Source: Spirosoma foliorum (GTDB lineage: Bacteria; Bacteroidota; Bacteroidia; Cytophagales; Spirosomataceae). Taken from it: DNA of 64,000 nucleotides. The position numbers were made by a program, and so were the translations under genes. The notes beneath the pieces are model-generated. The model did not search any database. It saw only the letters and a program-made list of their open reading frames with translations, and was not told the DNA's origin. The DNA lies in NCBI RefSeq assembly GCF_014117325.1, contig NZ_CP059732.1:7887501-7951500 (forward strand), written 5' to 3'. Below, in pieces: positions 1,929 through 24,710 of this stretch; the first letter of the stretch is position 1, and every line of letters begins with the position of its first letter.

Positions 1929-3068
1929 CTAGCGGACTAATTCCATTAAGTCTTTATCATTTACTTCCTTACGAATGTCTGCCATATCCAGGAAGCGCGT
2001 ATAAATTCCATCGAGGGTTGGCTTGTCATAACGGAAGCCTAACAATTCGAGTCGGTGTTTTAAGGCGTGGCGGCCGCTACGAGCGGTCAGAACGATCGAA
2101 GATTTTGGAACACCAACATCATGTGGATTCATGATCTCATAGTTCTCAGAATGCTTTAAAAAACCGTCCTGGTGAATTCCTGACGAGTGAGCAAACGCAT
2201 TTCGACCCACAATGGCTTTGTTTGCCTGAACAGGCATGCGCATCATTTGAGACACTAAATTGCTTAACGGGAACAAGCGTGTCGAATCGACATTCGTATA
2301 TAAGCCTAATTCCTTCTTCACCTTAATGGCCATTACGACCTCTTCGAGCGATGTATTACCTGCCCGCTCACCAATGCCGTTCATGGTTACTTCTACCTGA
2401 CGTGCGCCATTCATGACACCTGCAAGCGTATTTGCTGTCGCCAGACCTAAATCGTTATGACAGTGAATTGAAATCGTAGCTTTATGAACATTCGATACGT
2501 GTTCATAGATGTACGCAATTTTCCGACCATACTCGTCGGGTAGGCAATAGCCGGTTGTATCTGGAATATTAACGACCGTGGCTCCAGCATTAATAACGGC
2601 TTCTGTTAATTGGGCCAGAAATGCCAGATCCGCACGACCAGCATCTTCGGCATAAAACTCTACATCTTCAACGTAGGTTTTTGCATGCTTAACAGCCGCA
2701 ATGGCTTGCTCAAGAATTTTCTCCCGCGTGCTACCGAATTTATTCCGAATGTGAATATCCGATGAGCCAATTCCCGTGTGAATACGGCCTCGTTTAGCCC
2801 ATTTGAGCGCTTCACCTGCTGCATCGATATCGCCTTTTACGGCCCGGCTAAGTGCACAGATCGTTGGCTCTGTAACGGCTTTCGAGATTTCGACAACGGA
2901 ACGGAAATCACCGGGACTTGAGATAGGGAAGCCTGCTTCAATAATATCGACACCCAATAGTTCCAGTTCTTTGGCAACCACAATTTTTTCCTCTGTGGTC
3001 AACTGGCAGCCTGGCACTTGTTCGCCATCGCGTAAAGTGGTATCGAAAATATAAACTCGTTGGCTCAT
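1929..3068 (-). CDS. leuA: 2-isopropylmalate synthase, short form
   Basis: Condenses acetyl-CoA with 2-ketoisovalerate, the first committed step of leucine synthesis. The HMGL-like TIM barrel covers almost all of its 379 residues: the DTTLRDGEQ motif is at residues 9-17, the metal site HCHND near 200 and GIGERAGN near 230. Classical LeuA proteins are about 500 residues with a C-terminal leucine-sensing domain. Here that regulatory domain is absent, so allosteric inhibition by leucine is not expected. Control appears to be at transcription: the gene has its own promoter (3259-3288), a leader peptide (3170-3217) and a terminator hairpin (3111-3143). A second, long paralogue with the regulatory domain lies at 5277-6797. 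Homocitrate synthase is a related family, but the leu context favours LeuA. Confidence 0.93.
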
Positions 3069-3110: not shown

Positions 3111-3143
3111 AAAAAGGCCCTTTCCTGTTGAGAAAGGGCCTTT
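3111..3143 (-). terminator. leuA attenuator hairpin (leader terminator)
   Basis: A 12-bp perfect stem, aaaggccctttc (3113-3124) with gaaagggccttt (3132-3143), has a 7-nt loop. On the minus strand it is followed by five T. It lies between the leader peptide stop (3170) and the leuA start (3068), the position expected of an attenuator. Simple termination of read-through from leuB is the alternative, and it could do both. Confidence 0.82.
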
Positions 3144-3169: not shown

Positions 3170-3217
3170 CTATAAAACGTTTAGGTTTTGCAGTCGGTTA
3201 GTAAGGGAAATAGGCAT
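3170..3217 (-). CDS. Candidate leucine leader peptide
   Basis: A 15-codon frame, [15 protein letters not shown], ends in TAG. Four of 15 residues are Leu, using four different codons (CTT, CTG, CTA, TTA), and the last sense codon is Leu. It starts about 35 nt downstream of the predicted transcription start and stops 26 nt before the attenuator stem. The layout is promoter, short Leu-containing frame, terminator, leuA. It is too short for standard gene finding. The Leu codons are not consecutive as in the enterobacterial leuL, which is the main reason for caution. Confidence 0.6.
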
Positions 3218-3227
3218 AATTTTATTT

Positions 3228-3239
3228 GCGAAATTTCGC
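3228..3239. promoter_or_regulatory. 12-bp palindrome, candidate operator shared with ilvD
   Basis: GCGAAATTTCGC is a perfect palindrome. It begins 20 nt after the -7 element of the leuA promoter and ends 10 nt before the leader-peptide ATG. The same 12 bp occurs at the same distance from the ilvD -7 region (23379-23390), with further matching bases between. It is probably a repressor or activator site; in RNA it could also form a 4-bp hairpin. Confidence 0.6.
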
Positions 3240-3258
3240 TGTTCGCGTAAATACGCTA

Positions 3259-3288
3259 CAAAAATAACCATTTTGAAAAAGAGTGCAA
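3259..3288 (-). promoter_or_regulatory. leuA promoter (Bacteroidota type)
   Basis: On the minus strand TTG (3288-3286), a 19-nt spacer and TATTTTTG (3266-3259) match the Bacteroidota consensus TTG-N19..21-TAnnTTTG exactly. The transcription start should be near 3252. It drives the leader peptide and leuA independently of the upstream leuCD operon. Confidence 0.75.
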
Positions 3289-3328
3289 GGGAATACACAA
3301 ATTTTTTCAACTGATGATCAGTAGGTAA

Positions 3329-9222: not shown

Positions 9223-9651
9223 TCAGGTGGCCTCAAAGCCATCTTTTAGGGCTGCTTCGAGTATATCAACGTTTATATCTTTCAGCGTTTTGAACTTGAT
9301 GCAATAGCCAGTCACGCTCGCCTTTCCAAGCTTTTCACCATACGTTTTGGCTAAGTATGTCTTATCCTTAATACCAAGGATGTACACCGAGATTCCGGTC
9401 GTGTTTGCACTCAACCCAATTTGATAAAACTCCCGGGTTGTGCCATCAGCATAGTTTATGGTGTAAAATCCATAGCCTATGTTCGGGTTAGAAACCGTTT
9501 TACCATCGCTGTTTTTTCCATTGATGAACCATAATTTAGAAGCTGGTGACGCTTGAAGTATGCGCCGGTGCAACTCTTGCAGATCGCTCTGTTTGGGCTC
9601 AGGCTGGCTAGTAATATAATTGTTGATTTGCTCTTCTATGTTCATAGCCAA
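9223..9651 (-). CDS. DUF1801 domain protein
   Basis: The 142-residue cytosolic protein begins with a helical segment (IEEQINNYITSQPE) and continues with a small alpha/beta domain ending in CIKFKTLKDINVDILEAAL, typical of the DUF1801/YdhG-like group. The function is unknown; related folds bind small ligands or metals. It lies 17 nt downstream of the PQQ dehydrogenase gene on the same strand and may be co-transcribed. The start could be Met1 or Met3. Confidence 0.8.
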   Translation of the reverse strand: MAMNIEEQINNYITSQPEPKQSDLQELHRRILQASPASKLWFINGKNSDGKTVSNPNIGYGFYTINYADGTTREFYQIGLSANTTGISVYILGIKDKTYLAKTYGEKLGKASVTGYCIKFKTLKDINVDILEAALKDGFEAT

Positions 9652-9668
9652 GTGCGAGGTGTTTTTAT

Positions 9669-12023
9669 TTATAGCGATAACGCAACGAGTTCTCCAGGGT
9701 GACCGATGGCCCCAACGGCTACAACGATATACTGCTTGCCATTGATCGAATACGTCATAGGTAGACCGGCCTGATTGGCGGGCAATTCGATCTCCGAAAT
9801 GATTTTCCCAGTTTGTTTGTCGTACGATCTGAATTTGTTTCCGCCACCGCCATCTGAACCATACAAGCCTGCCCCTTCGCCAGCAAATAACAGGGTTTTC
9901 GTCACCAGCATGCCAACCCGATCAGGCAATCCAGTTCTGGGAATTTTAATGCCCTTTAAGGCTGGAACATCTTTGACCCAGCTAGGCGTATCAGCATTCG
10001 GTACCATCCATTTGTGATCGCCGGTATTCAGATCAATAGCTGTGATTCGTCCGTAGGGAGGTTTTACTAACGGCAAACCATAGGGGCCAATTCGGGCATT
10101 ACCCATATAGGCTACGTAATCCATATCCGATATATTAGGTGCCGACTCCAAACTCATAGGCCGAATAACCGTACTGGACGAAACATACAGAATTCCGGTT
10201 TCGGGGTCCAGAACGCCACCCTGCCAATTAGCACCACCCACGGCGTCGGGAAGCATTAGCGTTCCTAAATTATTGGGTGGATTGTAGGTACTGATAGGTG
10301 TATAAAGCGGCCCTTTTTTATAGCGGCTGACAATCTTTAAGGCTGCCTTTTTGATTTCAGGTGTAAAGTCCACCAGAATATCATCTGAATACCCCTGTCG
10401 GTCGAAAGCGGCAGGTTTTGTTGGGAAAGGTTGCGTAGGTGATGTCCACTCGCCTTTCACATCACTTTGGGGAACAGGACGCTCCTCGATTGGCCAAACG
10501 GGCTTCCCGGTAACGCGATCAAAAACAAAAGCAAACGCCTGTTTGGTAACCTGAACAACTGCTTTTATGGCCTTTCCATCTATAGTAATATTTGCCAGGA
10601 TAGGGGGAGCTGGCAAATCATAGTCCCAGATGTCGTGGTGGATCAACTGGTAATGCCATACTCGTTTGCCCGTTTTAGCATCTAAACAAACCAGACTTTG
10701 CGAAAACAGATTGCTTCCTGGTCGATGGCCACCGTAAAAATCGCCGGTTGCGGCCTCTAAGGGTAGATAAACGTAGCCTAATTCGGGATCTGCTGTTAGG
10801 GGTGCCCAGGCTCCAGCGTTGCCCGTATAGGTCCAACTTTCCTTTTCCCAAGTTTCATTTCCGACCTCGCCCTGCTGCGGTATGGTGTGGAAAATCCATA
10901 ATTTCTTTCCGGTTTTTACATCATATCCCATAATATCTCCCCGAACTTGCTTTTTAGAAACAGGCGCTAAGCCCACGGGAAAAGACGCTCCCATGATGAT
11001 AACGTCGTTGACAATAATGGGGGGAGATGTGGAGCCAATCGTTGCGGTAATTGGATCAATTTTCTGGTCTAAGCCTTTCTTCAAATCTACCACCCCGCTA
11101 TCGCCAAAATCAGGGATTAAATGCCCTGTCTTAGCATCCAAAGCAACCAATTGAAAACTTGGCGTAATGTAAATGATCCGATCTTTCCCTATTGAAGGCG
11201 ATGCCCAGTAGGCTACTCCTCGACCAGAATTCTGGCGGGGTACATAGGTTTTTCGCTCTTTTTCGTCGAATCGAAACGTCCAGAGTGTTTCCCCGTTTTC
11301 GGCATCTATGGCGGCTACTGTTCTGCTCAAGCCGGCAGTGGTATATAAGATACCATTCACCATCAAGGGTGTCGATTTAAAATAAAACTCTGGACTGGCT
11401 CCGAAGTTGTCGGTTTTCCAGCGCCAGGCGATTTTCAGATTTTTGGCATTTTCTTTATTGATCTGCTCTAAAGAAGAGTAATTCGAGCTGGCGCAGTCGC
11501 CCCTGTGCTGTCGCCAGTCGGCTTCAATCGTGGTTGGTTTTGCGTTGTAGGCAGCGGGCTTAAACTGCATACTTACCCGCGAAGAAGGCGTGCCCAAAGA
11601 AATAGCGGCCAATACTTCCTTTTTCGACGACAAGGCCACATCGCCGTTGGGAAACCCGTTGGCATTCAGAATAAACGCCAATAGGGACGAATAAGCCGTA
11701 TTATCCAGCGAGTGGGGATTGGTTTTGGGCATGGTCGATTTGGTCAAATCAAACAATTGCCCCACCGATTTACCGGCCCACTTAGTTATGAAACGATCCC
11801 CAATCAGCGCTGTGCCACCTTCCGTTCCTCGTAAATCCCGACCATGACAGGCCGCGCAATGTGTAGCAAATAGAATTGCCCCTGTTTCAACCTGCTTTTT
11901 GGTGAAAACCCCCGAATTAGCAGTTAATCCTACTTTTTTTGCTGAATGCTGTTGCGCTTTCAGACATGAGCAGAAAAGTAGATTGAAGACTACTGTACAA
12001 ACGAGTAGGGAGCGATTTTTCAT
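9669..12023 (-). CDS. PQQ-dependent dehydrogenase with N-terminal cytochrome c domain
   Basis: The 784-residue exported protein has a signal peptide at residues 1-23 (a Cys-containing end, FCSCLKA, could also be a lipobox). A c-type haem site CAACH lies at 56-60 and an eight-bladed quinoprotein beta-propeller runs from about 165 to the end. Propeller hallmarks are WRQHRGDCASSNYSSLEQI and repeats such as DAENGETLWTF, DAKTGKRVWHY, DLNTGDHKW and DKQTGKI. It is likely to oxidise a sugar or alcohol in the periplasm and pass electrons through its own haem. The closest general class is membrane-type glucose/alcohol quinoproteins; the substrate is unknown. No pqq synthesis genes are in this window, so PQQ must come from elsewhere. 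Confidence 0.88.
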   Translation of the reverse strand: MKNRSLLVCTVVFNLLFCSCLKAQQHSAKKVGLTANSGVFTKKQVETGAILFATHCAACHGRDLRGTEGGTALIGDRFITKWAGKSVGQLFDLTKSTMPKTNPHSLDNTAYSSLLAFILNANGFPNGDVALSSKKEVLAAISLGTPSSRVSMQFKPAAYNAKPTTIEADWRQHRGDCASSNYSSLEQINKENAKNLKIAWRWKTDNFGASPEFYFKSTPLMVNGILYTTAGLSRTVAAIDAENGETLWTFRFDEKERKTYVPRQNSGRGVAYWASPSIGKDRIIYITPSFQLVALDAKTGHLIPDFGDSGVVDLKKGLDQKIDPITATIGSTSPPIIVNDVIIMGASFPVGLAPVSKKQVRGDIMGYDVKTGKKLWIFHTIPQQGEVGNETWEKESWTYTGNAGAWAPLTADPELGYVYLPLEAATGDFYGGHRPGSNLFSQSLVCLDAKTGKRVWHYQLIHHDIWDYDLPAPPILANITIDGKAIKAVVQVTKQAFAFVFDRVTGKPVWPIEERPVPQSDVKGEWTSPTQPFPTKPAAFDRQGYSDDILVDFTPEIKKAALKIVSRYKKGPLYTPISTYNPPNNLGTLMLPDAVGGANWQGGVLDPETGILYVSSSTVIRPMSLESAPNISDMDYVAYMGNARIGPYGLPLVKPPYGRITAIDLNTGDHKWMVPNADTPSWVKDVPALKGIKIPRTGLPDRVGMLVTKTLLFAGEGAGLYGSDGGGGNKFRSYDKQTGKIISEIELPANQAGLPMTYSINGKQYIVVAVGAIGHPGELVALSL

Positions 12024-12144
12024 TTAACAGAAGTCAGGAGATGTCAGTCCAGTTAAAAGCAGGTTTGATAACGTAAATACCATAGTGCGTAACTTTAATA
12101 TGGAAGCAGCTTAACCGTCTTATTTCTTTGAAATTGAACCGCTT

Positions 12145-12178
12145 TTCTGTCATTCCTCCTGGCGTCGGAATGACAGAA
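12145..12178. repeat. Small hairpin of the GTCATTTCGACGTCAGGAG family
   Basis: A perfect 12-bp stem, ttctgtcattcc (12145-12156) with ggaatgacagaa (12167-12178), encloses 'tcctggcgtc'. Read on the minus strand, GACGCCAGGAGGAATGAC resembles the arm of the larger repeat at 25683-25763. It lies in the 178-bp gap between two minus-strand genes. Confidence 0.75.
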
Positions 12179-12201
12179 TCTAGGGTCTATCTACGGTATG
12201 A

Positions 12202-14214
12202 CTACTCCCGTGGCCAAATGTTATCGGTAGGATTGGCATCCGGGAAACGGCCATGCGGATCAAACGTTATCTTTTTGATCTTGCGTTCGCCAAAATTCAT
12301 GATGGCATTAAACGTACGGTTGCCATCAAACCAAACGGAGGCAGGCCAGGTAACTTCGGCGGTAGTGGCATCGATCATTTTGGCGTTAGGCATCGTTTTA
12401 ATGGCAGGGCCTGCTGCGTCAAACTCAACCTTCAACACAATCGGCGACGGCATCTGACCTGCCTCATGAACAGTTACCGTAGTCTGGCCATTTGCCGTTT
12501 TTACTCCCTGAATCGATCCTTCAACAGTCTCCGTTGTCCATAGCCAGTAGTACCAGAACCACTCGAGATTCTGTCCTAATTCATTGTTCATGAAGAAGAT
12601 GTAATCCCAGGGCGACGGATGTTTGAACGCCCACGTTGCTGTATATTTTTTCATGGCGTTTAGCACTGCCTGATCGCCTACAATGCCACCCAGCATGGAA
12701 AGCATCAACGGCGCTTTGCCATAAGTTTGAAACCGATAGCCACTACCAGCATCGTTTGCGCTCCACATCATGGGTGCTTCGTTTTCGTCGCCACTCATCC
12801 GGCCATAGCTCTGGCCCAGACCATCCAGATTATAGGGTTTCCGGTCTCGGTCGGCAGCCGAGAGGATATTCATGTACTGATTGAAGCCTTCATCCATCCA
12901 GCCGTAACGTGTTTCATTCGTACCCAGCATCATAGGCCACCACTCGTGCCCAGTTTCATGATCGGCAGCACCCTGATTCGAGTTAATGACCATCGGATAC
13001 TCCATACCCGCGCTTGGGCCATCCTGCAAGGTCAATTGAGGAAATGGATAAGGTGCCCAAAGTGCGGAATAAAACTCGAGCGCATGTCGTGTAATCGTAC
13101 CCGCTTTTTCAAAGAGTTTGGCTCGTTCGGGGAGGTAAACCATATGAATGGGAATAGCGCCTTTGCCGGGAATGGTGGCGCGGGTTGCCTTCCAGATAAA
13201 GTTTTCGGCGGTTGCCCAGGCAAAATCATTGACCTTGTCTGCCACAAAATGCCAGGTGAGCTTGTCGCCCGGAGCCGTTGATTGGCCAGGCCCTTTTTCG
13301 GTTTCACCCACAATGACTACTTCATCGTTGGAGTTGAGAACGGTGGAAAGCCGCTGCCGTGCCGTTGCTGTCAACACCTCGTTTTGGTTTTGAAGGACGC
13401 CTGTACCACTGACAATCCATCCGCCGGGTACAGTTATGGACACATCGAATTTGCCGAAGTTATTGTAGAATTCTGAAGGACCGAGGTAAGGGCTTGTCTC
13501 CCAACCACGCAGATCATCATATTTTCCCAGGCGCGGGTACCATTGTGTGGGTTGAAAGAGCTTACTATCAAACCGTTGCGTCATTCGGTGACCTCGCCCA
13601 TTTGGACCGCCTGGTAGCTTGGTGTGCCATTCGATTTCCAGTTCAGCCGTTGTTCCTGCTTTGACCGGATCAACCAGATTGATAGTGGCTATCGTTTGCG
13701 TAAGGCCGGATATAGTCATTTTGGTAGTGGGTGCTGTACTCCGACCAAATGGCGACGGAGTGGGAGCTGCGGCTGTAAGATCCACTGACTGCCCCGCTAC
13801 TTTCAGGCTAGTTAAAACCATGCCATCGGTTGCTTCGGCTGGCACAGACGCCCCGCGCTGGGCTTCCGGCCGAAACAAGTTATGATCAAGGCGCAGAACA
13901 ATCGTTTTCAGGTCGTACTGGCTATTGTTATGCATGCTGATTTTTTCTGATCCAGTAATTACTTGTGTTGCCGGATCAAGGCTTGCCTTTATAGTATAGT
14001 CAGCCTCTAACTGCCAGTAATTGGGTCCCGGTTTGCCAGAGAAATCACGCGTGCCAGCCTTGAATGCGTTTTGGATGGAGTTTGTTATCGGAACATCGAG
14101 CCGAACTGAACGCTTCGACGTCTCGACTGTTTTCCGGATTGGTGAACTCGTCTGTTGGGCTGAGACAACTGTGCTGCCTATCAGCAGTGTAAGGAAGGTA
14201 ATTCGTGTAATCAT
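12202..14214 (-). CDS. Secreted M1-family metallopeptidase
   Basis: The 670-residue protein has a signal peptide (1-20, ending VVSAQ) and an M1 aminopeptidase-like fold. The zinc site is HETGH at 419-423 with the third ligand Glu442 in WMDEGF, and GMEYP near 403 is the counterpart of the GAMEN substrate motif. The N-terminal beta domain (40-270) is typical of M1 enzymes, and the C-terminal helical domain is short. It probably degrades peptides in the periplasm or outside the cell. It is monocistronic or grouped with the PQQ gene, from which it is separated by the 12145 hairpin. Confidence 0.9.
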   Translation of the reverse strand: MITRITFLTLLIGSTVVSAQQTSSPIRKTVETSKRSVRLDVPITNSIQNAFKAGTRDFSGKPGPNYWQLEADYTIKASLDPATQVITGSEKISMHNNSQYDLKTIVLRLDHNLFRPEAQRGASVPAEATDGMVLTSLKVAGQSVDLTAAAPTPSPFGRSTAPTTKMTISGLTQTIATINLVDPVKAGTTAELEIEWHTKLPGGPNGRGHRMTQRFDSKLFQPTQWYPRLGKYDDLRGWETSPYLGPSEFYNNFGKFDVSITVPGGWIVSGTGVLQNQNEVLTATARQRLSTVLNSNDEVVIVGETEKGPGQSTAPGDKLTWHFVADKVNDFAWATAENFIWKATRATIPGKGAIPIHMVYLPERAKLFEKAGTITRHALEFYSALWAPYPFPQLTLQDGPSAGMEYPMVINSNQGAADHETGHEWWPMMLGTNETRYGWMDEGFNQYMNILSAADRDRKPYNLDGLGQSYGRMSGDENEAPMMWSANDAGSGYRFQTYGKAPLMLSMLGGIVGDQAVLNAMKKYTATWAFKHPSPWDYIFFMNNELGQNLEWFWYYWLWTTETVEGSIQGVKTANGQTTVTVHEAGQMPSPIVLKVEFDAAGPAIKTMPNAKMIDATTAEVTWPASVWFDGNRTFNAIMNFGERKIKKITFDPHGRFPDANPTDNIWPRE

Positions 14215-14256
14215 AGTTGGTGAAATGTTAAATCGTTATTGGCTGGATAGCAACGG

Positions 14257-14685
14257 TTAATCTTTCTGGCCGCCTTTGAAAATCCAGGAAACGCCGTATT
14301 TATCGGTGAATTGCCCATAGCTTCCAAATGGCATATTATTTAGCTCAATGAACGTTCTGGTATCTTGGTCAGCTCCGGCTGCCAGTTTGTCGAACACCGT
14401 TTTTACTTCATCATATGTTTCACCGACGACATATATGCTAAATGTGTTTCCCGGTTTTGGCTCAAGTTTAGGGGAAGCCATCCAGTCGGTAGCTGAGAAA
14501 TCGATGGCCCCACTTTTCAGTTGGGCATTGATAATCCGGTCATGTTTTTCGGGTGGAAACTGGGCTTTCATGGGCGTATCACCGAGTTTAATCAGTGTCA
14601 AGTCTCCGCCAAGACACGTTTGGTAAAAGGTCATTGCCTCAGCGCAATTTCCATCGAATAAAAGAAAGGGGGTACAGTGTAGCAT
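14257..14685 (-). CDS. VOC-family (PhnB-like) protein
   Basis: The 142-residue protein has two beta-alpha-beta-beta-beta units of the vicinal oxygen chelate fold. It starts LHCTPFLLFDGNCAEAMTFY and ends MPFGSYGQFTDKYGVSWIFK, typical of PhnB/3-demethylubiquinone-like VOC proteins. The catalytic role is unknown. The ATG at 14685 is chosen: a longer frame to 14835 overlaps the upstream AraC gene in another frame. It starts 10 nt after the AraC-type regulator, suggesting one transcript. Confidence 0.85.
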   Translation of the reverse strand: MLHCTPFLLFDGNCAEAMTFYQTCLGGDLTLIKLGDTPMKAQFPPEKHDRIINAQLKSGAIDFSATDWMASPKLEPKPGNTFSIYVVGETYDEVKTVFDKLAAGADQDTRTFIELNNMPFGSYGQFTDKYGVSWIFKGGQKD

Positions 14686-14695
14686 AGCTGTATGA

Positions 14696-15556
14696 TTAGT
14701 TACCGCGTTTGGGTGTAAAACCGTACTGTTGCTTATAGGCTTTAATAAAATGGGACACGCTTTCATACCCAATTTCCATACTGACTTCCGACACGTTTTT
14801 ATTCGTGTTTCGGAGTAGAAAGTGGGCATGTTCAAGCCGTTTTAATCGTATCCAATGACCGGGCGACGTATGAAAGTGTTCTTCAAATTCGCGTTTAAAT
14901 CCCGATAGGCTTCGTCCTGATAATCTGGCCAATTCGCTCATCGATAGTGGCTTAAGCGAATAGGCGTTCATCAAATAATCGAGGTCGATTTTCTGGCCTT
15001 GGTAAATATGCCACAAGATAGCGCGTAGCTGGCCTAGCGTATCGAGTTCGAGAAGATGAAGTAATAGCTCCTGAAACTTAAGCCGTAAGAGGTCGTTCAG
15101 AAAGGGAGTTTTAGAACCGAAATAAGGTAGCAGTGAATCAATAAACGTGGCAAACGTGGGCGATGACGAGAAGGATAAAATCAGATCCGTAGGGAGCGAA
15201 GTTGATGCCGATTGAAACAGTGACAGGTGCTGATTAACAAACTCTTTCAGCATTTTCTCATTCACAAAAAACACCAGACTTCGGTAGCTGTTGTCGATCG
15301 ACTCGTTCATGGAGTAACACCCCCGCTGAAAAAATAGAATGTCGCCTTTTCGTACGTGTAATTCCTGCGTAGGCGAACTGAACTTCTTCTCGCCTTCGAG
15401 CACTACAATAACGGCATGTTCCTCAAAAAATACCTCGTTCCGTTCAGGATAGACGTCGCTTCGATACGCCACGAACTTCATCTCTGAAGCGTCGGGTCGC
15501 CGGATATTCAGTGATTCAAACTGATTGGCTTGTATGGAGGAGGGGACGCGGAGCAT
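14696..15556 (-). CDS. AraC-family transcriptional regulator
   Basis: The protein has 286 residues from the ATG at 15556. The N-terminal half is a cupin-like sensor (FFEEHAVIVVLEG, LHVRKGDILFFQ). The C-terminal 100 residues are a double helix-turn-helix domain: MSELARLSGRSLSGFKREF, then the second helix pair VSEVSMEIGYESVSHFIKAY and QQYGFTPKRGN. It probably controls the VOC gene 10 nt downstream. The ligand is unknown. A longer frame from 15598 overlaps the DUF2442 gene and is less likely. Confidence 0.9.
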   Translation of the reverse strand: MLRVPSSIQANQFESLNIRRPDASEMKFVAYRSDVYPERNEVFFEEHAVIVVLEGEKKFSSPTQELHVRKGDILFFQRGCYSMNESIDNSYRSLVFFVNEKMLKEFVNQHLSLFQSASTSLPTDLILSFSSSPTFATFIDSLLPYFGSKTPFLNDLLRLKFQELLLHLLELDTLGQLRAILWHIYQGQKIDLDYLMNAYSLKPLSMSELARLSGRSLSGFKREFEEHFHTSPGHWIRLKRLEHAHFLLRNTNKNVSEVSMEIGYESVSHFIKAYKQQYGFTPKRGN

Positions 15557-15569
15557 GAAGGTTTGTTGA

Positions 15570-15827
15570 TTAAGCTTTCGCCAAAATCTCACCTTCAACG
15601 TAATCTCTCAGATACGTTGGGTCAAAATCATAACCATTGGGCCAATAGATACCACTTCCCCGTTCATACAAATGAACTTGTTTGAAATAATCAAAGTCAG
15701 CCAAAGGCTTCGTAATTGGGTTATCTTTAATATACGGCTTAAAATCAATTAACTTTTCTAGGCCGTCGGTGAAGCGAAAACGAATGTAGTAGTTCTCTAA
15801 TACTTCAAAATTTTCAATTTCTGCCAT
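15570..15827 (-). CDS. DUF2442 protein, partner of DUF4160
   Basis: The 85-residue protein has the DUF2442 pattern: a small beta-rich N-terminus (YYIRFRFTDG, KLIDFKPYI), then the GIYWPNGYDFDPTYLRD motif close to the C-terminus. It lies 9 nt downstream of a DUF4160 gene on the same strand. Such DUF4160-DUF2442 pairs recur in bacterial genomes and are predicted, not proven, toxin-antitoxin-like modules. It sits at the tail of the ilv cluster. Confidence 0.85.
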   Translation of the reverse strand: MAEIENFEVLENYYIRFRFTDGLEKLIDFKPYIKDNPITKPLADFDYFKQVHLYERGSGIYWPNGYDFDPTYLRDYVEGEILAKA

Positions 15828-21008: not shown

Positions 21009-21359
21009 CTAGGATTCCTCTTTTTCAAGAGTTTCAATAATTGTTTCAATAGAAATCAAAAGTGGCGTTGCATTTTCGGTAATTACTAGCCAGACAATCA
21101 TTAGATCGACATCGATATATTGATGAATAAGTCGATCTCTCATTCCTGCTATGTCTTTCCAGGGAATGTCAGCGAAACGTTCACGCACTAACATTGATAA
21201 CCGTTTGGTTGCTTCTCCAGCAATTTCCAATTGTCTGACACAAGCATCCTGTGTTTTTGAATCATTCAGGAATTCTGCCAATGTCATTTCTTCTGCATAT
21301 TCCAGTAATTTTCTAAAACTGTTTGCGATGTGATCCAAATAAGTCAGATCGTCATTCAT
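21009..21359 (-). CDS. hepT: HepT-like RNase (DUF86), toxin of a HepT-MntA pair
   Basis: The 116-residue all-helical protein carries the HEPN RNase motif RX4HXY as RDRLIHQY near residues 81-88. In characterised HepT-MntA systems the toxin is neutralised by AMPylation of the motif tyrosine by the MntA nucleotidyltransferase; that is family knowledge, not shown here. Its start overlaps the mntA stop by 4 nt (ATGA-type coupling). The pair sits between ilvD and ilvB on the same strand. Confidence 0.9.
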   Translation of the reverse strand: MNDDLTYLDHIANSFRKLLEYAEEMTLAEFLNDSKTQDACVRQLEIAGEATKRLSMLVRERFADIPWKDIAGMRDRLIHQYIDVDLMIVWLVITENATPLLISIETIIETLEKEES

Positions 21360-21665: not shown

Positions 21666-23366
21666 CTACGCTTCATCTGTTACACAGCCTTCACTGGCAG
21701 ACTTTACATTGCGAATGTATTTGCCCAGCACACCTTTAGTGAATAAAGGAGCGGGTTGTTTCCATTCGCTTTTCCGTTGCGCTAATTCTTCGTCCGAAAC
21801 GTGTAAAATCAGTTCGCGAGTTGTGGCATCGATTGTGATACCGTCGCCATCTTTAACCAGCGCGATAGGACCTCCTTCGAAGGCTTCGGGTGTAACGTGG
21901 CCTACAACGAAACCGTGCGTACCACCGGAGAAACGCCCATCGGTAATTAAAGCAACTTTATCGCCAAGACCCGCTCCCATGATGGCTGAGGTTGGCTTCA
22001 ACATTTCACTCATGCCAGGCCCACCTTTTGGCCCCGCATTCCGAATCACAAGTACCTGACCAGCCAGGATTTCGCCTTTCGAGAGAGCATCGATAATGTC
22101 GCCTTCATGTTCGAATACTTTGGCAACACCTTCGAATTTTAAGCCTTCTTTACCTGTGATTTTCGCAACAGACCCAGTTGGCGACAAGTTACCCCGCAGA
22201 ATCTGAATGTGGCCAGTAGCCTTAATGGGTTGGCTCAGCGGGAATACAATCTTCTGCGTATCAAAGTTTAAATCAGATGCTTCTTCCAGATTCTCTGCAA
22301 CCGTTTTGCCCGTTACAGTCATGCAATCGCCGTGGATGAATCCATTCTGATACAAATATTTCGTTACAGCCGGAACACCCCCAATGGCGAGCATATCCTC
22401 CATGTAGTATTTACCACTTGGTTTCAGATCGGCGAGTAGGGGAGTCCGGTCACTGATTTCCTGAATTTCGTCGAGCGTAAGCTGAATGCCAGCCGCCCGC
22501 GCAATAGCCAGGTAGTGCAACACCGCATTGGTTGACCCGCCAAGCGTCATGACGAGAGTCAGGGCATTTTCGAGTGATTTACGGCTAATGATATCGGCTG
22601 GCGTGATGTTGCGTTCAAGCAATAGGCGCATAGCCGCACCAATCTTTTTACATTCTTCCTGTTTTCCTTCGTGCGTGGCTGGGTAAGTGCTGCTGAATGG
22701 CAGACTCAATCCCATGGCCTCGATGCTACTAGCCATTGTGTTGGCTGTATACATACCTCCGCAGGCACCTGCCCCTGGAATCGCATTTTTGATAACACCT
22801 TCGTAATCTTCGTCGGAGATGTTATTTGCGTATTTTTTACCGAGTGCTTCAAACGCCGAAACGATATCTAATTTCTGTCCTTTATAATGTCCCGAACGAA
22901 TCGTGCCCCCATACACCATGATGCCTGGGCGATCAAGGCGAGCCATTGCTATCAGGGCGCCGGGCATATTCTTATCACAACCTACAACCGTTACCACACC
23001 ATCGTACCATTGTGCCGATACAACCGATTCAATAGAGTCGGCAATCAGATCGCGGCTGGGGAGTGAATAACGCATGCCGTCGTTACCGTTTGTCATCCCA
23101 TCCGATACCCCGATTGTGTTAAAAATCAACCCGACCAATCCATTGGCCTGAATTCCCTGCTTCACATAAACAGAGAGTCCATTCAGGTGCATGTTGCAGG
23201 TGTTTCCTTCATAGCCCGTACTGGCAATACCAATTTGGGGCTTCTGCATGTCGTCTTCAGTTAGCCCTACTCCGTAAAGCATAGCTTTGGCGGCTGGGTT
23301 ACTGACTTCTTGGGTTAGCGTACGACTAAAGCGGTTTAATTCGGTAGTAGGTTGTTCGGCAATCAT
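21666..23366 (-). CDS. ilvD: Dihydroxy-acid dehydratase
   Basis: Fe-S dehydratase of valine and isoleucine synthesis; about 566 residues, normal length. Cluster/metal motifs are [10 protein letters not shown] near 53, [16 protein letters not shown] near 125 and [14 protein letters not shown] near 200, with the C-terminal [15 protein letters not shown]. The ATG at 23366 ([10 protein letters not shown]) is preferred over the in-frame TTG at 23375. It is the first gene of the ilv run. The promoter carries the palindrome shared with leuA. Confidence 0.95.
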
Positions 23367-23378
23367 AATTAACAATTA

Positions 23379-23440
23379 GCGAAATTTCGCTGATGGTGTA
23401 ATAACGCTGTAAAGAAAAGTTATGTTTTTATGAAAGGCAA
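23379..23440 (-). promoter_or_regulatory. ilvD promoter with shared palindrome
   Basis: On the minus strand TTG (23440-23438) is followed after 20 nt by TTTCTTTA (23417-23410), a weak version of the TAnnTTTG box. Then, after 19 nt, comes the palindrome GCGAAATTTCGC (23390-23379), 12 nt before the ATG. Aligned without gaps to the leuA promoter it also shares GTAA, ACGCT and AAA (plus-strand sense). The alignment to leuA is the main evidence for the -7 position. Confidence 0.55.
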
Positions 23441-23527
23441 GAAAAATCGGATTATTTCTCGATGGAACGCTGATTTTAATGATCCATATGATTTAGGAAT
23501 GCTTTTACATCGCCGGTTACCTAGCTA

Positions 23528-24710
23528 GTGTTACTTAAAGAGTAGTCTGGCGGCTTTTTGTATTTTTGATGCTGTAACTCATCTTCCATGACTAAGCATC
23601 GACTGACTCTAACGGCCACCGAACGTACAGAATTACTGGCTAAAGTCCAAAAAGGCAAAACAGCCGCTAAACTCATCCAAAAAGCACAGGTGCTTTTGGC
23701 CAGTGACGAGGCTGTCGAACGCCAGAGCCAAACTACGATTGCCGCCACCTATCATCTCTCCACACGCAGTGTTGAGCGGATTCGCAAAGAATTTTGTGAG
23801 CAGGGCATGGCGGTCTTTGATCCAAAGCCCCGCCAGCCCCGTTCCGACAAAAAGCTGACGGGGGAAGTGGAAGCTCACTTGATTGCCATTGCCTGTAGCG
23901 AACCACCAGTCGGTGAAAGCCGCTGGAAATTACAGGCTATTGCGGATCGACTGGTCGAACTCCAAGTAGTTGAAACGCTTTCTCACACGAGTGTGGCAAC
24001 GGTGTTAAAAAAAACCAACTTAAGCCCTGGCGGGTCAAGGGATGGGTGATTCCGCCCAAGCAAAGTGCCGATTTTGTGTACTATATGGAACAGGTTTTAG
24101 CTGTTTATGAGCGACCTTATGATGAGCGGTTTCCCGTTGTTTGTGTGGACGAATCACCCAAACAACTAATCGAAATCAAGCAATATCGTTCCGCCGACGG
24201 CACACGCATCCAAGATTCCGAATACATCCGGCGGGGCGTAGGCGAGATTTATATGGCCTTTGAACCCTTGGCAGGGCAACGGTTTGTCGAAGTCAAAGAC
24301 GATCACAAGGCCATTACGTGGGTGGGTGTGCTAGCCAATTTATTGGACGGCCCTTATACAGACTGTGTAAAAATGACGGTGGTTGGAGATAATCTGAGTG
24401 CCCATAAACCCAGTGCATTTTATACAGTTTTTGGGGCCGAGAAAGCCAAAGCGTATCTGGATCGATTGGAGTTTGTCTATACCCCCAAGCATGGCAGTTG
24501 GCTTGACATGGCTGAGATTGAGTTGTCCATCTTACAGCGTGATTGCCTGAATCGGCACATTGCGACCAAAGAGTTGCTGGTAGCAGAAATTACCGCCTGG
24601 CAAGCAAACAGAAATGCCAAACAAGCGAAGGCGAACTGGCAGTTTACCACCAAAGATGCCCGAGTAAAATTACATAAGCTATACCCGACAGTTTAATCTT
24701 TAGACAACAC
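23528..24710 (+). mobile_element. IS630-family insertion sequence
   Basis: The element is 1183 bp. Left end GTGTTACTTAAAGAG and right end (read inward) GTGTTGTCTAAAGAT are imperfect terminal inverted repeats extending about 26 bp. The element is flanked on both sides by TA (23526-23527 and 24711-24712), the target duplication expected of IS630/Tc1-mariner transposition. One transposase in two overlapping frames fills it. The ends look intact, so it may be active. It lies between the ilvD promoter and murQ and disrupts no recognisable gene. Confidence 0.9.
23588..24696 (+). CDS. IS630-family transposase, two frames joined by -1 frameshift
   Basis: Frame 1 (23588-24049) encodes the helix-turn-helix DNA-binding part (TIAATYHLSTRSVERIRKEF). 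Frame 2, which continues to 24696, encodes the DDE domain: VCVDESPKQ with the first Asp, VVGDNLSAHKP with the second, and KHGSWLDMAEIELS with the catalytic Glu. At 24007-24014 there is a run of eight A. Slippage by -1 there joins VLKK to NQLKPWRVKGWVIPPK, which restores the usual family sequence at the junction. Without slippage frame 1 ends within about 40 nt. This is the usual programmed -1 layout in many IS630 elements; a decayed gene is less likely because both parts are intact. Confidence 0.87.

Follow-up and report, generated by a model that had tools for sequence, protein, structure and literature searches.

A conserved putative operator just downstream of the leuA and ilvD promoters of Spirosoma, with an ScfR/IsaR-type protein as its candidate regulator

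The operators of ScfR/IsaR-type regulators, such as RamB, PrpR/MccR and PccR, are among the closest described relatives of the element analysed here. According to passages of one account, Paracoccus RamB is an ScfR-family activator whose gene adjoins malate synthase, the protein binds CoA esters as well as two near-identical DNA boxes, and two-box operators of this kind are common for ScfR (PMC10370305). Sections of a second paper present MtPrpR as a CoA-binding [4Fe4S] tetramer carrying a C-X2-C-X4-C motif plus one other cysteine, and give TTTGC(A/G)AA as the MtPrpR/RamB motif (PMC6765138). For branched-chain amino acid (BCAA) genes, a DNA-binding regulator, CodY, is combined with a leader attenuator in Staphylococcus, as described in part of PMC5794164. 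The Bacteroidetes promoter consensus is stated, in a portion of PMC7366714, as TAnnTTTG at -7 and TTTG at -33. We found no description of DNA-level control of BCAA synthesis in this part of Bacteroidota in our searches of openly licensed papers. To our knowledge, the ScfR-family targets reported so far do not include amino acid synthesis genes.

We compared these systems with the ilv-leu cluster of Spirosoma foliorum, which lies in a stretch of 64,000 nucleotides (hereafter the window, to which coordinates refer unless stated otherwise). As in the ScfR/IsaR systems, the four cluster cysteines are conserved in the Spirosoma protein; TTTGCGAAA, found at some aceB-type sites of sister genera, resembles the MtPrpR/RamB motif TTTGC(A/G)AA; and the RamB-like gene of sister genera adjoins malate synthase, as ramB does in the Paracoccus passages cited above. 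Unlike those operators, the sites described here serve targets that include ilvD and leuA, lie downstream rather than upstream of the -7 box at these two genes and contain a box that is a perfect 12-bp palindrome. Furthermore, the boxes of the Paracoccus operator are separated by a spacer of 18 bp, whereas the 17-18 bp seen here is a start-to-start distance. The leuA leader resembles those of leu/ilv leader-peptide attenuation, with a short ORF that includes L/I/V codons and then an intrinsic terminator before leuA, but Spirosoma leaders hold just 3-6 L/I/V residues and the leuA leader is preceded by a putative operator. A DNA-binding regulator combined with a leader attenuator would be shared with the CodY-controlled genes of Staphylococcus, although the regulator, the site and the phylum are all different. 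The palindrome is presumably not similar to a CodY box.

A palindrome shared by both ends of the ilv-leu cluster

The cluster runs in the order ilvD, ilvB, ilvN, ilvC, ilvA, leuC, leuD, cimA-like, leuB, leuA, with leuA and ilvD as its two ends. leuA (1929..3068, minus strand) encodes a 379-aa 2-isopropylmalate synthase that scores 594.8 bits against a cut-off of 532 for NCBIfam NF002086 and is 98% identical to the nearest named LeuA, from Spirosoma arboris. ilvD (21666..23366, minus strand) encodes dihydroxy-acid dehydratase, with NCBIfam TIGR00110 and NF002068 both above cut-off; its start, the ATG 12 nt past the palindrome, was chosen by reading the sequence. The palindrome itself, GCGAAATTTCGC, lies before leuA at 3228..3239 and before ilvD at 23379..23390, on the minus strand in both cases, and is the predicted main box (box 2) of the operator. 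The leuA promoter has a -7 box of the Bacteroidetes TAnnTTTG type (TATTTTTG, 3259..3266, minus strand) and, 19 nt from it, a -33 element CTTG (3286-3289, minus strand). At ilvD the -7-like element (TTTCTTTA, 23410..23417, minus strand) is a weaker match to TAnnTTTG than that of leuA, with CTTG (23438-23441, minus strand) at 20 nt. A sequence-only reading of the window had placed the palindrome 19 nt past the -7 box at both genes, and the distance from the last -7 base is indeed 19 nt at each. It also saw blocks shared across this spacer, and the two spacers agree at 13 of the 19 positions. It also had the palindrome ending 10-12 nt before the first start codon; the distances are 10 nt at leuA and 12 nt at ilvD, but only at ilvD is this ATG the gene's own start, since at leuA the ATG at 3217 opens a 15-codon leader ORF rather than leuA, which starts at 3068.

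Within the 19-nt spacer we found a degenerate second box, box 1, located 17 bp upstream of box 2 from start to start. It reads GCGTATTTACGC before leuA (3245..3256, minus strand) and GCGTTATTACAC before ilvD (23396..23407, minus strand), in the same 17-bp register. The leuA version recurs at 13 of the 21 Spirosoma leuA sites, with close variants at the remaining eight, and the ilvD version at 21 of the 25 ilvD sites. Degenerate as box 1 is, a GCGT at 17 bp is present at 17/21 leuA and 23/25 ilvD sites of the genus. Judged from the -7 element, transcription would start at or just before box 1.

The S. foliorum genome (one contig, 8,853,064 bases searched) contains two exact copies of GCGAAATTTCGC, those at leuA and ilvD. 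There is no third copy in the 64-kb window, as the earlier reading had reported, or in the rest of the genome. Under a first-order Markov model fitted to the window, 1.5 copies would be expected in a genome as large as this one, and the reversed word, used as a control, is found four times; set against the two copies observed, these figures make copy number alone uninformative. The looser pattern GCGAANNTTCGC matches seven places in the same genome, and because the five extra places all fall inside long stop-to-stop frames (175-807 codons), no additional targets were found there. A chance similarity of the two sites would agree with the count. It is refuted by positions and spacing that are conserved across the family, which leaves it a negligible probability; in our assessment it is position and conservation, not number, that exclude chance.

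Conservation was examined in 25 Spirosoma genomes (S. foliorum and 24 others of the genus), which hold 58 exact copies. Tblastn with the window proteins placed 46 of these upstream of one of the two genes, leuA in 21 genomes and ilvD in 25; of the 12 that remain, 11 fall within stop-to-stop frames of at least 353 codons. In this exact-match scan the copy at ilvD is thus found in 25/25 genomes and that at leuA in 21/25, the four genomes without it being G003, G012, G020 and G022; a further genome, that of Spirosoma oryzae, has GCGAATTTTCGC at the leuA position. At 21/21 Spirosoma leuA sites, TTTTG and the palindrome are separated by 19 nt. Beyond the genus, 131 of 200 family genomes have an exact copy, a figure that includes chance copies inside genes, and many of the places fetched from other genera again precede leuA and ilvD. 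The sequence-only reading had named two outcomes that would count against it, namely abundance of the motif at random positions and lack of conservation in relatives, and the genome searches showed neither; its expectation that the motif is conserved upstream of these genes held in Spirosoma and in other genera. Because of this conservation, we regard it as close to certain that the initially transcribed regions of leuA and ilvD contain a conserved DNA operator. In three genera (g16, g50 and g19), the region upstream of ilvD has a pair of exact palindromes spaced 241-242 bp apart (L193, L196, L203, L206, L210 and L219), as if for looping or for two promoters.

The palindrome at non-BCAA genes of sister genera

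The 12-mer also adjoins genes outside BCAA synthesis, both in several sister genera and in three genomes from other families of the order. Pfam searches on representatives identified eight such neighbours: malate synthase, a 496-aa XRE protein with an IrrE-like domain, a 483-aa GAPDH, ATP-type PEP carboxykinase, fructose-1,6-bisphosphatase, a fatty acid desaturase, a POT transporter and an SCP2 protein. The best NCBIfam match of the XRE protein was RamB, far below cut-off; at 54.5 bits against the 700 required by the RamB equivalog NF038139, we call it RamB-like and do not file it as RamB. When the eight genes were used as tblastn queries, 32 distinct sites were found to adjoin at least one of them, and at 11 of these, in ten genomes, malate synthase and the RamB-like gene are both neighbours. 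Some of the 32 sites are orthologous promoters of related genomes, so the set is not independent. At every one of them (32/32) a TAnnTTTG box points away from the palindrome, at a distance of 23 nt (22 sites), 32 nt (8 sites), or 21 or 41 nt (one site each), and 29/32 have a GCGAAA-type half-site 17 or 18 bp from the palindrome. Among 26 sites that lack these neighbours, of which 21 are in frames of at least 205 codons and five have no long frame, the half-site was found at 0/26 and the TAnnTTTG box at 1/26; the five frame-free sites have neither. At BCAA genes the GCGAAA-type half-site is absent from 12/12 leuA and 22/29 ilvD sites, the seven ilvD sites that have it all belonging to genus g46. 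Exact copies in the three genomes from other families (G032, G037 and G027) adjoin malate synthase, and both copies in G025, likewise from another family of the order, lie in long frames. A search for malate synthase in 25 genomes returned a close match in two (G042 and G063); in five Spirosoma genomes there was no close match, with distant 32-33% matches in G000 and G001 and none in G003, G015 and G020.

The earlier reading had proposed a regulator dedicated to branched-chain genes and acting just downstream of the transcription start. The second part is supported by family-wide conservation at a fixed spacing. The first applies to Spirosoma, with two exact sites and no more in the S. foliorum genome, and does not extend to the family, in which the palindrome is also present at aceB, the RamB-like gene, gapB, pckA and others. 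A distance of 23 nt would put the palindrome's centre at about -41, a usual activator position, and at leuA and ilvD it would lie downstream of the start, a usual repressor position. The distances from palindrome to TAnnTTTG are mostly 23, 32 or 41 nt, and thus fall into 9-nt steps, near one helical turn (L191-L258, L004, L005 and L030).

A candidate regulator and competing readings

The S. foliorum genome encodes an ScfR/IsaR-type protein with XRE and IrrE-like domains (positions 2931934-2933430 of contig C1). Its N-terminal XRE helix-turn-helix scores 47.9 bits for HTH_3 (cut-off 23), the match of its middle domain to the IrrE/M78-like PF06114 is weak (24.4 bits against 22) and its sequence matches in the PDB cover the HTH region only. 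All four cysteines to which the [4Fe4S] cluster is attached in MtPrpR are present, in the form of C-X2-C-X4-C plus a further cysteine (363, 460, 463 and 468 of the first row), and these are invariant in nine of nine aligned proteins. The gene was found in 36/36 Spirosoma genomes searched, with an interrupted frame in G016. It is unlinked to the cluster (2.93 Mb versus 7.89-7.91 Mb), and no palindrome lies in the 280 nt before the Spirosoma gene.

Across 200 family genomes, in which the best candidates (up to seven per genome) were scored and ScfR-like was defined by an E value below 1e-60, the exact palindrome is present in 126 of 160 genomes with an ScfR-like protein and in 5 of 40 without (Fisher p = 8e-15, kinship ignored); loss of ScfR is concentrated in genera g26 and g34. 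In three of the five exceptions (G152, G173 and G164), and for one of two copies in G118, the copy lies in a long frame; placement in frames left out the exact copy of G062 and the second of G118. For 25 genomes the stretch fetched before ilvD had no exact copy. Among these, a form with at most two mismatches was found in 15 of 17 genomes with ScfR and in none of eight without, compared with 1 of 400 shuffled upstream regions. Such forms with one or two mismatches (GCGTAATTTCGC, GCGAATTTTCGC and GCGAAATTTCAC) often occupy the same place after a TTTG box. G083 and G070 have ScfR and no site in the stretch before ilvD.

Since the 12-mer adjoins the RamB-like gene and aceB in sister genera and ScfR is found in 36/36 Spirosoma genomes, an ScfR-type acyl-CoA regulator is the leading candidate. 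We consider it fairly probable that leuA and ilvD have a two-box operator that is read, and repressed from, by an ScfR/IsaR-type regulator. The palindrome would then be the main half of an operator composed of box 1 (GCGTATTTACGC or similar) and box 2 (GCGAAATTTCGC), 17 bp apart from start to start and overlapping the first ~30 transcribed bases of both genes. Because of this position, repression is what would be expected at leuA and ilvD: a bound dimeric or tetrameric repressor could block promoter escape or early elongation, and once it came off, both ends of the cluster would be switched on together. The binder would be an XRE regulator similar to RamB and PrpR, whose relatives sense short-chain acyl-CoA, and in sister genera this type of protein is probably an activator of glyoxylate and gluconeogenesis genes, acting from 23 or 32 nt ahead of the -7 box. 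The leuA operator would act before the leader-peptide attenuator, so that leucine supply would be read a second time, during elongation.

A fuller evolutionary version of this proposal is more tentative, and we place it slightly short of probable. It holds that Spirosomataceae took over an Fe-S, acyl-CoA-sensing activator of glyoxylate and gluconeogenesis genes as a repressor of leucine and valine synthesis, acting at an operator that lies within the initially transcribed region and is stacked before an attenuator, with the exact sites in Spirosoma being essentially those at leuA and ilvD. If true, leucine and valine synthesis would be tied to acyl-CoA state (LeuA consumes acetyl-CoA), amino acid synthesis genes would join the known targets of the ScfR family and the two sites would form a compact regulon whose operator and attenuator, arranged in series, could be separated by experiment.

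The same operator could instead be read by another regulator, specific to BCAA genes, in which case the 12-mer at aceB and the ramB-like gene would reflect related or converging specificity. The 46 of 58 exact Spirosoma sites that lie at leuA or ilvD fit this reading, with the remaining 12 resembling chance copies. So do the differences between the two groups of sites: the position relative to the promoter, the accessory register (17 bp in Spirosoma versus 18 bp at most aceB-type sites) and the recognition helix, which is SYVTEIEKGRKYPK in Spirosoma ScfR and SYLNEIEKGKKYPK in the aceB-linked relatives. However, the same palindrome with a related half-site adjoins the scfR-like gene itself in several genera, and the palindrome co-occurs with ScfR; we view a separate BCAA-specific regulator as possible but doubtful. 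Less likely still is that the palindrome is bound by the AraC/ExsA_N-type regulator encoded within the cluster (14696..15598, minus strand; Pfam PF22200 and PF12833). This protein is matched in 15/16 Spirosoma clusters and is widespread in the family. Yet no match better than 1e-80 was found in six genomes that keep the exact palindrome at ilvD (G023, G020, G022, G092, G055 and G081) or in G085, which keeps a one-mismatch form there, although with about 11 best candidates scored per genome orthologues could be missed. In G023 the gene is absent from the cluster itself too, and conversely it is present in four genomes without an exact copy (G057, G097, G108 and G126). It also counts against this reading that AraC proteins are mostly activators whose sites are asymmetric and lie upstream of the promoter.

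The sequence-only reading had also suggested an RNA element next to the ribosome entry site, that is, a 5' UTR hairpin with a GCGA/UCGC stem and an AAUU loop. The site does end 10-12 nt before an ATG, and a consensus fold gives two small stems here; the invariance in the alignment behind this fold is no evidence, because its rows were selected by exact match. At the sites beside other genes, however, the palindrome is upstream of the TAnnTTTG box in 32 of 32 cases, and therefore outside the mRNA of that promoter, which makes an RNA reading unlikely. The four-nucleotide 'loop' is as conserved as the stem (25/25 Spirosoma ilvD sites), the variants GCGAAATTTCAC and GCGTAATTTCGC found elsewhere break the stem, most Spirosoma ilvD sites have a disrupted box-1 stem (GCGT versus ACAC) and in several sister genera ilvD starts at least 150 nt downstream. 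Taken with these observations, the hairpin is very improbable, and an operator read by an ScfR/IsaR-type protein is the reading that we prefer.

The leuA leader and the gene neighbourhood

Downstream of the putative operator, the leuA leader contains an ORF of 15 codons (3170..3217, minus strand), six of which encode L, I or V, and an intrinsic terminator (3111..3143, minus strand). Leader ORFs of 11-18 codons, with 3-6 L/I/V residues each, were found in 21/21 Spirosoma leuA leaders. The terminator folds, and an alignment of 20 of these leaders revealed two-sided changes at seven pairs of its stem, so that it is supported by compensatory changes. By eye, GGAGAGAAGG could pair with the CCTTTCTC arm to form an alternative antiterminator. 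Rfam searches (E up to 1) of the first 26 kb of the window and ten leuA loci gave no leader match at a family's threshold; a sub-threshold match to Thr_leader covers the leader of L095 (27.0 versus 55 bits, E = 0.53).

Leaders also precede ilvD in sister genera, some with strong I/L/V runs such as MFANIIVVVVVILCTQTV and MNSYKAINIILVIILLCQTV. At the 25 Spirosoma ilvD sites the ilvD reading frame follows close behind the palindrome, which leaves no room for a leader ORF. It looks as though operator followed by attenuator is the common plan, of which Spirosoma ilvD retains the operator alone. Upstream of ilvD in L341, L219, L193, L210, L229, L232 and L234, ORFs rich in I/L/V and terminator-like hairpins come after the palindrome. 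Similar I/L/V-rich ORFs and terminator-like hairpins were seen by eye before leuA in Prevotella, Bacteroides and other Bacteroidota (L105, L107, L122, L131, L153, L156 and L164). None of these leuA leaders matched an Rfam family at its threshold, and together they possibly represent an undescribed, widespread leader family.

LeuA (379 aa, window 1929-3068) aligns to only the first ~380 of ~500 model positions, and its C-terminal regulatory domain is therefore seemingly absent; the cimA-like protein (523 aa) matches its model over the full length. Between leuC and the AraC gene (window 9223-14835), a 142-aa, a 784-aa, a 670-aa and a VOC protein were matched in 0, 2, 0 and 0 of 16 Spirosoma clusters, respectively, and these genes are perhaps a recent insertion. 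A HepT-like protein (window 21009-21359) lies between ilvD and ilvB and has matches in 5/16 Spirosoma clusters. On the other side of ilvD, an IS630-type transposase in two frames (window 23588-24696) separates ilvD from murQ, a gene whose start is ~100 bp away from the palindrome in several Spirosoma relatives.
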